Shown: piece by piece, positions 52,484-62,665 of the stretch
How positions within the stretch are numbered: position 1 is the first letter of the stretch
Layout: the number at the start of each line of letters is the position of its first letter
From: Oscillospiraceae bacterium
Lineage (GTDB): Bacteria > Bacillota > Clostridia > Oscillospirales > Ruminococcaceae
Reading direction: 5' to 3'
Assembly (NCBI GenBank): GCA_017848055.1
Contig: JAGALZ010000035.1
Location: 1 to 64,000 of the forward strand
Length of the DNA stretch: 64,000 nucleotides
The notes under the pieces: model-generated
What the model was told of the DNA's origin: nothing
The model's database searches: none
What the model saw: the letters and a program-made list of their open reading frames with translations, nothing else
Position numbers and translations under genes: made by a program

Positions 52484-53812
52484 TTAGTTAAGCTTTGCTT
52501 CGAGAGCAGCCTTTGCATCTTCATAGCCAGGCTTTCCGAGAAGAGCAAACATATTCTTCTTGTAGCTTTCAACACCCGGCTGATTGAATGGGTTAACGCC
52601 GAGCATATAGCCGGAGATTGCACAAGCCTTTTCGAAGAAGTAGATGAGTTCGCCGAGGTTTTCCTCATCAATCTTATCCATTTCGATAACGATGTTCGGA
52701 ACTCCGCCTTCTGTATGAGCAAGAATTGTACCGTTCATTGCCTTCTGGTTTACAACGCTCATATTCTGGTTTGTAAGGAAGTTAAGACCGTCGAGGTTAT
52801 CTGCATCGTCTACGAGGAAGAAGTCCTGCTTAGCTTCCTTTATGTTCATTACAGTTTCGAACATGATTCTCGAACCGTCCTGAATGAACTGACCGAGAGA
52901 ATGAAGGTCTGTAGAGAATGTAGCGGATGATGGGAAAATACCCTTGTTATCCTTACCTTCGCTTTCGCCGAACAGCTGCTTCCACCACTCAGCCATCATA
53001 GTAAAGCTTGGGTCATAGGAAACGAGCATTTCAACGGACTTACCCTTACGGTAAAGAATATTTCTGATTGCTGCATATTTGTAGCAGTCATTGTCAAGAT
53101 TCATATAGCTTTCTCTTGCCTTAGCAGCACCTGCCATAAGCTTATCAATATCGCAGCCTGAAACCGCAATCGGGAGAAGACCTACTGCAGTAAGAACTGA
53201 GAATCTTCCTCCTACGTCATCAGCGATAACAAATGTTTCGTAGCCTTCAGTATCTGAAAGCTCCTTAAGAGTTCCTCTTGCCTTGTCGGTGGTAGCAAAA
53301 ATTCTTGTCTTTGCTTCTTCCTTGCCGTACTTGTCTTCAACAAGCTTCTTGAACACTCTGAATGCAAGAGCAGGCTCGGTAGTAGTACCGGACTTGGAAA
53401 TAACGTTAACACAGATATCCTTACCCTCACAGATTGAAAGAACTTCATTGAGGTATGTCGGGCTGATGTTGTTACCAACATAGTAGATATCCGGTGTATC
53501 CTTCTTCATATTGTTGTAGAATGGTGATTTTAAAAGCTCGATTGCAGCTCTTGCACCGAGGTAAGAACCACCGATACCGATTACGATAAGAATATCGCAC
53601 TTTTCCTTGATTCTCTGAGCAGCTGCCTTGATTCTTTCAAACTCTTCCTTGTCATAATCTACAGGAAGGTCAACCCATCCGAGAAAATCGTTTCCGAGAC
53701 CGGATTTGTTAACGAGAGTGTTATGAGCAGCCTCAAGCTGTGGCATCATTGCATCAATTTCATGCTGTGCAACAAAGCCCTCAAGATACTTTGAATTAAG
53801 TTTAATAGCCAA
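52484..53812 (-). CDS. pgi: Glucose-6-phosphate isomerase
   Basis: Pgi interconverts glucose-6-phosphate and fructose-6-phosphate, linking glycolysis with the glycogen pathway encoded at the left end. The 442-residue protein has the sugar-phosphate segment [14 protein letters not shown], the [11 protein letters not shown] motif, [15 protein letters not shown] and the C-terminal catalytic Lys region. I take the TTG at 53810-53812 (product [10 protein letters not shown]), 9 bases after AGGGA; an in-frame TTG at 53819-53821 directly abuts that site. Confidence 0.95.
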
Positions 53813-53868
53813 AAAAGTCAATCCCTTCGATAATAGAAACTATTTTTTAAGATATTATCTTACAATAC

Positions 53869-53947: not shown

Positions 53948-55120
53948 CTAGATATTTAGCAATTCTAACAACAATCTTCGATACATTTCGAGCAATGACA
54001 GCTTATTGACGCTTTCGCTTGTTACTATTTGCGTTGAGAAAATAGTTTCATCCCCAAGCTTTACAGAAATATCGCCTATTACCGTCCCCTTTTTTACGGG
54101 TGCGGGAATCAAATCGACACGTTGGTAAGAAATTTCAACGTCACTACTCCGCCACTTCGGAATCAGCAGCACTGCGTCATTTTTCGCCTGCACTTTACAG
54201 GTAAGCTTTTCTCCGCAATTTACACTGCAGTCAGACAAAATTTCATCATCATATTCTGGTGTATACAATTCGAATGCTGAAAATGCTGAGTTCATAGCTT
54301 CCTTTGCCCGTGAAAACAGAATATCCTTATCAGCTTCAAATGTCTTTACATATACAACTGTCATATCGTTTCTCTTTGCTGCTGCGGATAAATAGAATAC
54401 ATTTTCTGAACTGAATGCTTTAAATCCTATGATTCCGTTATAGCTTCTGACGAGAGTATTGTTGTTTACAAGCTCTGTTTTTCCGTTTCTTACGTTATCC
54501 ATCCATGTAGTTGTATACTCAAACAACCAGTCATGCTTCGACAATTCTGCTGTCAGAACGGCTATATCATAAGCACTTGTTGTAGTTGCGTCTGAAATTC
54601 CTGTACAGTCCGCAAAATACGTCGATTCCATACCAAGCTTTGAAGCTCTGACATTCATTCTCTCGACAAAAGCTTTTTCTGATTCGGCTACTGCTTCTGC
54701 AAGAGCAACACAAGCATCATTTGCGTTACCGATGGTTATTGCTTTGATAAGTTCTCTGACCGTTATTTTTTCTCCTATATCAAGCCATATCTGCGTTCCC
54801 TGCATTGAGTTTGCATACTTTGATGTGACTACAATATCCTCAATCGAAATATCACCTTCTTCGATATACTCTGCAGTTACGAGCAAAGTCATAAGCTTAG
54901 CAAAATGACCTGCGGGAAAGATTTCATCACTATGACTTTCCGATATTACTTTCATCGATGTAGCTTCAAGAACAACTTCGCTTTGATTCCGAGGAGAAGC
55001 TACTGCAAATCGGGAAAAACTGTCATAAACGCTCTGAACATTATCCTCAAGCCAGTCAAAGGGTGAAGCAAAGATATTCGCCGAAATTATCAGCGGTAAA
55101 ATTAATTTTATCAGAAACAT
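53948..55120 (-). CDS. PBP5/DacF-like D-Ala-D-Ala carboxypeptidase homologue with altered active site
   Basis: The 390-residue exported protein begins with a signal peptide (MFLIKLILPLIISANIFA) at the ATG of 55118-55120, behind GGAGGT. Its fold follows S11 carboxypeptidases (about 35-290 plus a C-terminal beta domain). The three active-site motifs are changed: SxxK reads HFAK (His72, Lys75), SxN reads NAN (132-134), and KTG reads KAF (234-236). Surrounding sequence is well conserved, for example QIWLDIGEKITVRELIKA. I expect no acyl-serine chemistry, so a binding or structural role at the wall is more likely. It is downstream of the HPr-like gene with a terminator between. Confidence 0.85.
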   Translation of the reverse strand: MFLIKLILPLIISANIFASPFDWLEDNVQSVYDSFSRFAVASPRNQSEVVLEATSMKVISESHSDEIFPAGHFAKLMTLLVTAEYIEEGDISIEDIVVTSKYANSMQGTQIWLDIGEKITVRELIKAITIGNANDACVALAEAVAESEKAFVERMNVRASKLGMESTYFADCTGISDATTTSAYDIAVLTAELSKHDWLFEYTTTWMDNVRNGKTELVNNNTLVRSYNGIIGFKAFSSENVFYLSAAAKRNDMTVVYVKTFEADKDILFSRAKEAMNSAFSAFELYTPEYDDEILSDCSVNCGEKLTCKVQAKNDAVLLIPKWRSSDVEISYQRVDLIPAPVKKGTVIGDISVKLGDETIFSTQIVTSESVNKLSLLEMYRRLLLELLNI

Positions 55121-55173
55121 ACAAGCACCTCCGTGGTACATTTTAACGCCAAAGAGGTATGAAATTTGTCGAA

Positions 55174-55201
55174 TTAAAAAAGCCGCCAATAAGGCGGCTT
55201 A
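55174..55201 (-). terminator. Terminator after the HPr-like gene
   Basis: On the minus strand, AAGCCGCC, the loop TTAT, then TGGCGGCTT followed by TTTTAATT. Confidence 0.85.
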
Positions 55202-55207
55202 AAATGC

Positions 55208-55435
55208 TCAGACGATAAAATGCTTTATGCTTTCAAGAAATGCATCAGCGTTGTCTGTATCAAGACACAGCTCAAAGGTTTCGCTTGTGTCAAGGCTGAG
55301 AACTCCCATCATTGATTTAGCATCAATAAGGCACTTTCCTGCTCTGAGTGTAACTGTAAACAGCTGATTAGAGCTGAGCTTTACAAACTCATTTATATCT
55401 TCAACTGAACTGAGTGTAACTCTTTTTACTATCAT
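55208..55435 (-). CDS. HPr-like protein lacking the PTS histidine
   Basis: A 75-residue protein with the HPr fold pattern. The regulatory-serine region reads AKSMMGVLSLD, matching the HPr Ser46 site (normally KSIMGVMSL). The active-site loop, normally GIHARPA with His15, is replaced by VEDINEF and is a few residues shorter. It therefore cannot take phosphate from enzyme I but could still be a target of HPr kinase, somewhat like Bacillus Crh. Regulatory function is inference. The ATG follows GGGAGG; promoter and terminator make it a single-gene unit. Confidence 0.8.
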   Translation of the reverse strand: MIVKRVTLSSVEDINEFVKLSSNQLFTVTLRAGKCLIDAKSMMGVLSLDTSETFELCLDTDNADAFLESIKHFIV

Positions 55436-61036: not shown

Positions 61037-61738
61037 TCAGCTTATCTTTTCAAGATTTGTTTTAATCCTTTTAAGAATCCTTTTTTCAAGCCTGGATATA
61101 TATGATTGGGAGATACCTACTTCGTCTGCGACTTCCTTCTGTGTCTTCTCGTGATAGCCGCACAAACCAAATCTCATCTGCATTATCAGCTTTTCACGTT
61201 CCTCGAGTTTATCTATTTCTTCAAGCAATAGTCGCTTTTCTGTTTCGTTTTCAAGATTTCTGATAACTATATCATCATCAGTACCGAGAATATCTCCAAG
61301 CAACAGTTCGTTCCCGTCCCAGTCTACATTAAGCGGCTCGTCGATTGATATTTCCTTTTTTCGCTGTGAAGATTTGCGTAGATACATAAGTATCTCGTTT
61401 TCTATACACCTCGATGCGTAAGTTGCAAGCTTAATATTCTTTTGCGGACAAAAAGTCTTTACAGCTTTTATCAAGCCGATTGTACCAATTGATATTAAGT
61501 CTTCAATGCCGACACCTGTCGATTCGAATTTCTTAGCTATATACACTACAAGTCTCAGATTATGAATTATCAGCAGCTCCCGTCCCCTTTTTTCATCAGT
61601 TTTCAGAAGCTCGAATGCCTTTTCCTCTTCTTCCTTAGTAAGCGGTGGCGGCAGCGTTTCCGACCCGTTTATGTAATACAGCACCCTTTTTCCGATAAGA
61701 TTAGAAATAAGGCTCTTGATTAGTTTTAAAAAGTTCAT
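61037..61738 (-). CDS. sigE: Sporulation sigma factor SigE
   Basis: SigE directs mother-cell gene expression early in sporulation. The 233-residue protein has the short pro-sequence typical of the inactive precursor (hydrophobic N-terminus up to about residue 25, with the [12 protein letters not shown] segment after it). Region 2 is seen in [23 protein letters not shown] and its following segment, and region 4 in [13 protein letters not shown] and [21 protein letters not shown]. The ATG at 61736-61738 is preceded by GGAGGG. It directly follows spoIIGA; no sigG follows, unlike in many relatives. Confidence 0.94.
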
Positions 61739-61758
61739 TTTGCCCTCCATGGTTTAAA

Positions 61759-62565
61759 TCAGAGTAATATCTGTGGATTGAAAATAGCTATATCGTCATC
61801 ATGAGTTTCAACTATTCCGATTGTAACATCTGCTGTTTTATTAAGCCCTGAAGCACTCTTTATTATTACAGATTCTGGCTTTACAGCATACAAAATTCCC
61901 TCACCGCTTGCTGTGGAGTATGGGATAATACGAAATCCCGCTTCGAGGGCTTTGTCGAGGTCAAAAGCTTCACACATTTTCTTGCTTTTACACACTATAA
62001 CGCTTTTCAGATTAACAAAGTCCTTAACTAGATTACCTGAATCAGATAATCCTTTCAGCGAAAATCGTTTCCCTTTTATCATTATATCCAGCGAATAGAT
62101 GTCTGATTTGAATTTAACAGAATCTATTATCATCTGAAACAGCGAAATCAGAGCATATAGTGCAACAATTGAAAATATAAGCGTGAGCAATGGCAGGTCA
62201 AAATACACGGTGTAATTGATTATGTAAATAGTCTTGGATTTACTAAGATACCAGAAAATATATAAAATAGATACAAGTACCGCATTGCATATAAGATAAA
62301 CAAAAAGCTGACGCAATATTCTTCTGGGAGAAATAATGCTGAATGCAAAGACAATCATTATTATACTAAAAAAAGACTTAATAAATACAATCGCAAAAAT
62401 ATTTGACGTAACTATAGATAAGCAAGTCAGCGACCCTATCAGCGAGGAAATAAAGTGTCTTGGGCTGCTTATCTTATAGTGAGTTATATGTGCTGTAAAT
62501 CCAATCAAACAAAAGCAGAGTGCAAAATTTACAATTATAAGCACATCAATATATATTTTAGGCAT
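61759..62565 (-). CDS. spoIIGA: Pro-sigma-E processing protease SpoIIGA
   Basis: SpoIIGA is the membrane-bound aspartic protease that cleaves pro-sigma-E when signalled by SpoIIR from the forespore. The 268-residue protein from the ATG at 62563-62565 has five N-terminal membrane helices (YIDVLIIVNFALCFCLIGF and onwards) and a C-terminal protease domain. The catalytic Asp lies in LKGLSDSGNLV (DSGN; DTGN is the commoner form). GGAAGTGATG is the ribosome site. sigE starts 20 bases beyond its stop, forming the spoIIG operon. Confidence 0.92.
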   Translation of the reverse strand: MPKIYIDVLIIVNFALCFCLIGFTAHITHYKISSPRHFISSLIGSLTCLSIVTSNIFAIVFIKSFFSIIMIVFAFSIISPRRILRQLFVYLICNAVLVSILYIFWYLSKSKTIYIINYTVYFDLPLLTLIFSIVALYALISLFQMIIDSVKFKSDIYSLDIMIKGKRFSLKGLSDSGNLVKDFVNLKSVIVCKSKKMCEAFDLDKALEAGFRIIPYSTASGEGILYAVKPESVIIKSASGLNKTADVTIGIVETHDDDIAIFNPQILL

Positions 62566-62583
62566 ATCATCACTTCCAATTTG

Positions 62584-62617
62584 ATTATACAGCCTGACCG
62601 ATACTAAATATGTCGAT
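62584..62617 (-). promoter_or_regulatory. Spo0A-type promoter of spoIIGA-sigE
   Basis: On the minus strand, ATCGACA (0A box TTCGACA, 6 of 7), 21 bases, then TATAAT (62584-62589). The layout matches the Spo0A-activated spoIIG promoter of Bacillus, which also has overlong spacing, and that of spoIIE here. Confidence 0.65.
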
Positions 62618-62633
62618 TGAAAGAGGACATATA

Positions 62634-62665
62634 AAAATCCCACTAAAATTTAGTGGGATTTTAAT
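62634..62665 (-). terminator. Terminator after the M18 aminopeptidase gene
   Basis: AAAATCCCACTAAA and TTTAGTGGGATTTT form a near-perfect stem; T-run on either side. It isolates the spoIIG promoter from read-through. Confidence 0.8.

Follow-up and report, generated by a model that had tools for sequence, protein, structure and literature searches.

A DacF-type homologue with altered catalytic motifs, conserved across a family subclade and associated with sporulation

The gene, its product and its neighbours

The window, i.e. the whole stretch of 64,000 nucleotides that was analysed, carries on its minus strand a gene for a putative DacF-type protein in which all three catalytic motifs are altered. 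The features of the locus, and of two genes elsewhere in the window, are as follows.

52484..53821, minus strand: pgi-type gene, the conserved downstream neighbour and the source of an independent tree
53948..55120, minus strand: putative dacF-type pseudo-DD-carboxypeptidase gene, 390 aa, with ATG at 55120 and a stop codon ending at 53948
54413..54421, minus strand: position of KTG, here K234-A235-F236 (alignment to PBP5-type enzymes)
54719..54727, minus strand: position of SxN, here N132-A-N134 (alignment to PBP5-type enzymes)
54896..54907, minus strand: position of SxxK, here H72-F-A-K75 (alignment to PBP5-type enzymes)
55127..55132, minus strand: Shine-Dalgarno GGAGGT ahead of the pseudo-DD-carboxypeptidase reading frame, read from the sequence
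55176..55199, minus strand: terminator-like hairpin (GCCGCC/GGCGGC and a T run) between the HPr-like and pseudoenzyme genes, found by eye
55211..55435, minus strand: HPr-like gene, the conserved upstream neighbour (PTS-HPr 23.2 bits, barely above the cut-off)
61037-61750, minus strand: sigma-factor-like reading frame adjoining SpoIIGA, by inspection probably sigE
61759-62643, minus strand: SpoIIGA (Peptidase_U4, 135 bits)

The product matches Pfam Peptidase_S11 (PF00768) with 138.3 bits (E 3.8e-40, against a gathering score of 27.6) and PBP5_C (PF07943) with 44.4 bits (cut-off 21.2), and in phmmer it aligns with solved PBP5-type enzymes along both domains. A signal peptide is predicted by eye at the amino terminus; the S11 domain spans residues 45-258 approximately, PBP5_C residues 283-373, and an amphipathic helix (376-389) forms the C-terminal end. 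An initial annotation had read the motifs as HxxK, NxN and KAF, with both lysines and the second asparagine kept, and alignment to PBP5-type enzymes shows the reading to be exact; the intact frame and strong ribosome site that it also described correspond to the 390-aa reading frame behind GGAGGT. None of the hallmarks of a serine DD-carboxypeptidase, i.e. the nucleophilic serine, the serine of SxN and KTG, is found in the protein. Modelling of the structure had been proposed as well, and an AF2 model from a 53-row alignment has the full two-domain PBP5 fold with a mean pLDDT of 93. Its best structural matches are P. aeruginosa PBP5 (Z 37) and E. coli PBP5 and PBP6 (both 36).

Three other S11 genes are present in the same genome. 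Two have all motifs intact; the third (L002, C7:17641-18369) has intact SLTK and KTG, and SAC replaces SxN. Judged by gene content and the manner of its named relatives, the source may be a Ruminococcus-like bacterium of the Clostridia.

The HPr-like gene is a conserved neighbour across many genera. Its product is Crh-like by eye: the phospho-His region is apparently missing and a KSIMG-like (Ser46) site is kept. The terminator-like hairpin that separates this gene from the pseudoenzyme gene implies that the latter has its own promoter.

Distribution, descent and selection

Is the altered protein peculiar to one strain? One orthologue was found in each of the 10 species of the genus examined, with 51-60% identity to the window protein, and all 10 have open frames and the motifs HxxK, NAN and KA[FYC]. 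In a scan of the family, 247 of 298 genomes match at E<=1e-40, essentially with one gene per genome. The 117 orthologues whose motifs were read represent the same family, further families of its order and three named records; 56 have SxxK and an SAN/SGN-type motif and 61 have NAN. The former are fully canonical in 54 cases. The remaining two, L015 (G019) and L094 (G123), lie outside the inactive clade and have KTG alone altered, to KTA and KYG respectively.

The NAN proteins represent 23 genus codes, all of one family, or 22 when L089 is left aside, the frame of which is disrupted at the first motif; this motif is readable in the other 60 of 61. Throughout these 60 proteins, Asn132 occupies the first position of SxN, and K75, N134 and K234 are invariant. 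The nucleophile position has H, Y, Q, T or A in 57 and S in three, and at KTG the lysine is kept and the threonine replaced in 59 of 60, almost always giving KA, KS or KV. There are two types. The H-type (34 rows, the window protein included) has H, Y or Q, followed by NAN and mostly by K[AS]C or KA[YF]; in the T-type (26 rows) the nucleophile position is T in most proteins, S in three, Y in two and A in one, and NAN and then mostly KAG follow. In the sequences compared, the clade is defined by the change from SxN to NAN, and the full combination H/N/KAF is only one local form of it. As to the proposed check whether neighbouring genera share the H/N/KAF pattern, NAN is shared clade-wide and the triplet only locally. 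The alternative of a single-strain mutation fails within the clade, as all 10 genus members and the 60 clade orthologues are altered.

Order- and class-wide scans for the NANDA coding pattern gave no further orthologue outside the family. They did find NAN in other S11 proteins (L156, L172 and L180-L182), the remaining pattern loci being non-S11. L180-L182 represent a different S11 protein, present in three genomes of genus g387 (family f32, same class), with AAASK as nucleophile motif and SNAND at SxN; by sequence, they apparently constitute an independent inactive S11 branch.

A tree of the S11 proteins, built without the motif columns by a quick search with no bootstrap, places the 60 NAN proteins on one side (SH-aLRT 96), with the H-type and T-type as two subclades (99 each). 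This tree needs one event for the change at SxN, no fewer than eight for the nucleophile and no fewer than 10 for the KTG threonine; the direction from S to N is inferred because the canonical state is general in S11. Catalytic orthologues in other genera occupy the same locus (mtaB, HPr-like gene, S11 gene, pgi). The neighbourhood common to catalytic and inactive versions consists of divergent purL and mtaB on one side, then the HPr-like gene, the S11 gene, pgi, a small P-loop gene, a YceD-like gene and rpmF, several of these names being assigned by inspection, beyond those that were profile-tested. In a tree from pgi only, the same inactive genera form one 22-row clade (SH-aLRT 95) with one state change, and the split into H-type and T-type is repeated within it. 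The presence of the same clade in the pgi tree means that the active site was most likely lost once and inherited with the chromosome. A horizontal spread of the inactive gene is unsupported, since the pgi tree agrees, and a recent paralogue beside a retained active copy is rejected, since the genomes have a single orthologue each, at a shared locus. Copies of S11 genes average 3.9 per genome with the pseudoenzyme and 4.0 without; the number being no higher, nothing points to compensation by an extra copy.

NG86 estimates of dN/dS are 0.10-0.13 among five close genus members and 0.06-0.11 in other pairs of the inactive clade, with 0.07 and 0.15 in two canonical pairs. W112 has never or almost never changed in the inactive clade. 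Positions freed relative to the canonical proteins include 72, 74, 107, 175, 179, 233 and 236, several of them in or beside motifs, and G131, N132 and L76, which adjoin motifs, became fixed. Judged by these substitution patterns, the site is a shaped one and not a product of general decay. An ordinary gene in decay within the genus, under relaxed constraint before its loss, would also have lost all three motifs, but it would not be expected with open frames in 10/10 species, dN/dS of 0.10-0.13, residues invariant across at least 22 genera and a conserved operon position, and is highly improbable. The open frames and dN/dS also reject mutation or decay in a single strain. The initial description of a ‘patterned loss, not decay’ and of a ‘pseudoenzyme’ is strongly supported by conservation across the genus and clade, low dN/dS and conserved synteny.

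Might the protein still be an enzyme, with altered chemistry? A threonine could serve as nucleophile in the T-type, where TxxK and KAG are kept, or a His/Cys arrangement (H72, C236, N132) could operate in the H-type, most members of which have KxC together with H72; strong purifying selection would be consistent with either. However, C236 is not conserved, being F in the window protein and Y both in its sister and in genus g61, and the catalytic Cys236-His72 pair is rejected on this ground. The nucleophile position, moreover, changes at least eight times and has Q, Y and A among its states. Altered catalysis is therefore very unlikely.

Another reading is that the cleft continues to bind a ligand, e.g. 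a stem peptide, a muropeptide or a D-amino acid, the protein being a sensor or a protector of stem peptides and not purely a protein scaffold. It draws on the invariance of both lysines and the second asparagine in 60/60 proteins while the nucleophile drifts, and on the fixation of the motif-adjacent G131, N132 and L76. Yet K75, N134 and K234 may be requirements of the fold only. The carboxylate of the substrate is contacted by the first residue of SxN and the threonine of KTG, and these are replaced in nearly all members; the KTG glycine is replaced in the H-type by C, Y, F, S, A or L, often a bulky residue. With these contacts gone, the proposal that the protein binds D-Ala-D-Ala stems finds no support, and a ligand-binding role in the broader sense is rather unlikely.

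Association with sporulation

The spoIVA gene is present in all 80 tested genomes that carry the orthologue. Among 20 genomes of the family without a strong orthologue match, 12 have no spoIVA and eight have it. No clear orthologue was found in the 12 spoIVA-less genomes, where the best S11 genes match other paralogues and one 510-aa protein is ambiguous; three of the eight spoIVA-positive genomes do contain orthologue fragments. The association of the gene with spoIVA has a Fisher p of 6e-12, or 4e-10 with the ambiguous case counted against it, in a sample that was picked by orthologue presence or absence and includes incomplete genomes, where some absences may be assembly gaps. A tie between motif loss and loss of sporulation is rejected, as spoIVA occurs in all pseudo-clade genomes tested.

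The octamer CATANNNT is found upstream of 74 of 115 orthologues, against 20 expected, and alignment anchored on it reveals a -35 sequence of the form (G)AATATT 14 bases from the octamer. When upstream regions were scored with published B. subtilis consensus sequences (PMC3416734), sigma-E gave z values of 12.6 in the inactive clade and 9.4 in active orthologues, compared with 1.3 and -0.5 for sigma-A; sigma-G, sigma-K and sigma-F were weaker than sigma-E. Upstream regions of five neighbouring genes, used for comparison, have sigma-E-type scores at background or slightly higher. The window gene's own upstream region has a weak sigma-E-type score (p=0.075 vs shuffles), at a site that is non-homologous to the conserved one of its relatives. 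C. difficile dacF belongs to the sporulation genes that sigma-G controls (PMC3789822), and a list of proteins needed for sporulation includes the closest DacF homologue (PMC8417463). SpoIIGA, encoded in the same window at 61759-62643, is a further point in favour of a sporulation context. Both the spoIVA association and the promoter signal of sigma-E type upstream of the orthologues lend support to the early suggestion that the protein ‘serves in spores’.

A putative non-catalytic role and known systems

The window protein is probably an ancient, vertically inherited DacF-type (S11) pseudoenzyme of the sporulation programme, which would act in the mother cell under sigma-E and, without catalysis, scaffold or regulate the enzymes of cortex synthesis. 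How might it have arisen? A catalytic orthologue at this locus most likely lost the chemistry of both SxN and KTG a single time, in the common ancestor of a family subclade, after which the nucleophile position was no longer tied to serine and could turn into His, Thr, Tyr, Gln or Ala. What the protein retained would be its fold, its secretion, a helix for membrane binding at the C-terminal end, and the cleft's framework of lysines and asparagine. Production would most likely take place in the mother cell under sigma-E, with the protein attached to the membrane on the side where spore peptidoglycan is assembled; there it could influence cortex synthesis as a scaffold or a regulator without catalysis of its own.

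That a disabled protein is kept intact at the same genome position in at least 22 genera points to a probable non-enzymatic job in spore making, and the kept fold, predicted export and amphipathic helix suggest the membrane face of the wall as its site. The best fit is a part in the assembly of spore peptidoglycan that needs no catalysis and works via protein contacts or occupancy of stem peptides. Based on the established chemistry of the S11 family, it is near certain that acyl-serine chemistry is lost in the H-type: with no serine at SxxK and SxN, there would be no acyl-serine route and no penicillin acylation of the known type. The T-type may have been disabled to a lesser degree, and weak residual activity is possible because a hydroxyl nucleophile, the lysine and KAG are kept.

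On balance, a whole branch of the PBP5/S11 family, fixed in the common ancestor of at least 22 genera of spore formers, may well have exchanged wall trimming as an enzyme for a non-catalytic part in spore morphogenesis, presumably insensitive to beta-lactams; the Csp pseudoproteases of germination would be a comparable case. If the protein is a spore-wall factor, many sporulators can do without the carboxypeptidase activity of this gene but not without the protein, and a non-catalytic role of DacF-type proteins becomes testable. Sister genera have catalytic orthologues at this locus, and there are intermediates (the T-type and serine-retaining proteins) as well as the inactive clade, so the transition from enzyme to non-enzyme is open to direct study.

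DacB (PBP5*) of B. subtilis is an active enzyme with intact motifs, and E. coli PBP5 and PBP6 and P. aeruginosa PBP5 are active enzymes with SxxK, SGN and KTG. Both domains of the latter three (PDB 1nzo, 3itb, 4k91) superpose on the model over approximately 327 residues, with Z 36-37. DacB (PDB 3mfd) has the same fold (Z 33) but is a weaker sequence match (E 3e-14); it is a sigma-E-controlled sporulation carboxypeptidase (PMC3416734). The DacF-type DD-carboxypeptidases (COG1686; B. subtilis DacF, C. difficile CD1291) resemble the window protein in domain order, predicted secretion, C-terminal amphipathic helix and link to sporulation. The promoter signal differs: it is sigma-E-like here, but B. 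subtilis dacF is controlled by sigma-F/G (PMC3416734) and C. difficile dacF by sigma-G (PMC3789822). Unlike DacF-type enzymes, the window protein is without the catalytic serine, the SxN serine and the KTG threonine.

Much work on natural pseudoenzymes has been devoted to kinases and proteases. A search of the open literature found no paper on pseudoenzymes among DD-carboxypeptidases or low-molecular-weight PBPs. The nearest idea is that of the Csp pseudoproteases of C. difficile spores: CspC and CspA (PMC6636752, PMC12880746) are likewise inactive members of an enzyme family kept for the regulation of spore biology, but they are subtilisin-like and act in germination, with a fold and pathway unrelated to those of the window protein.
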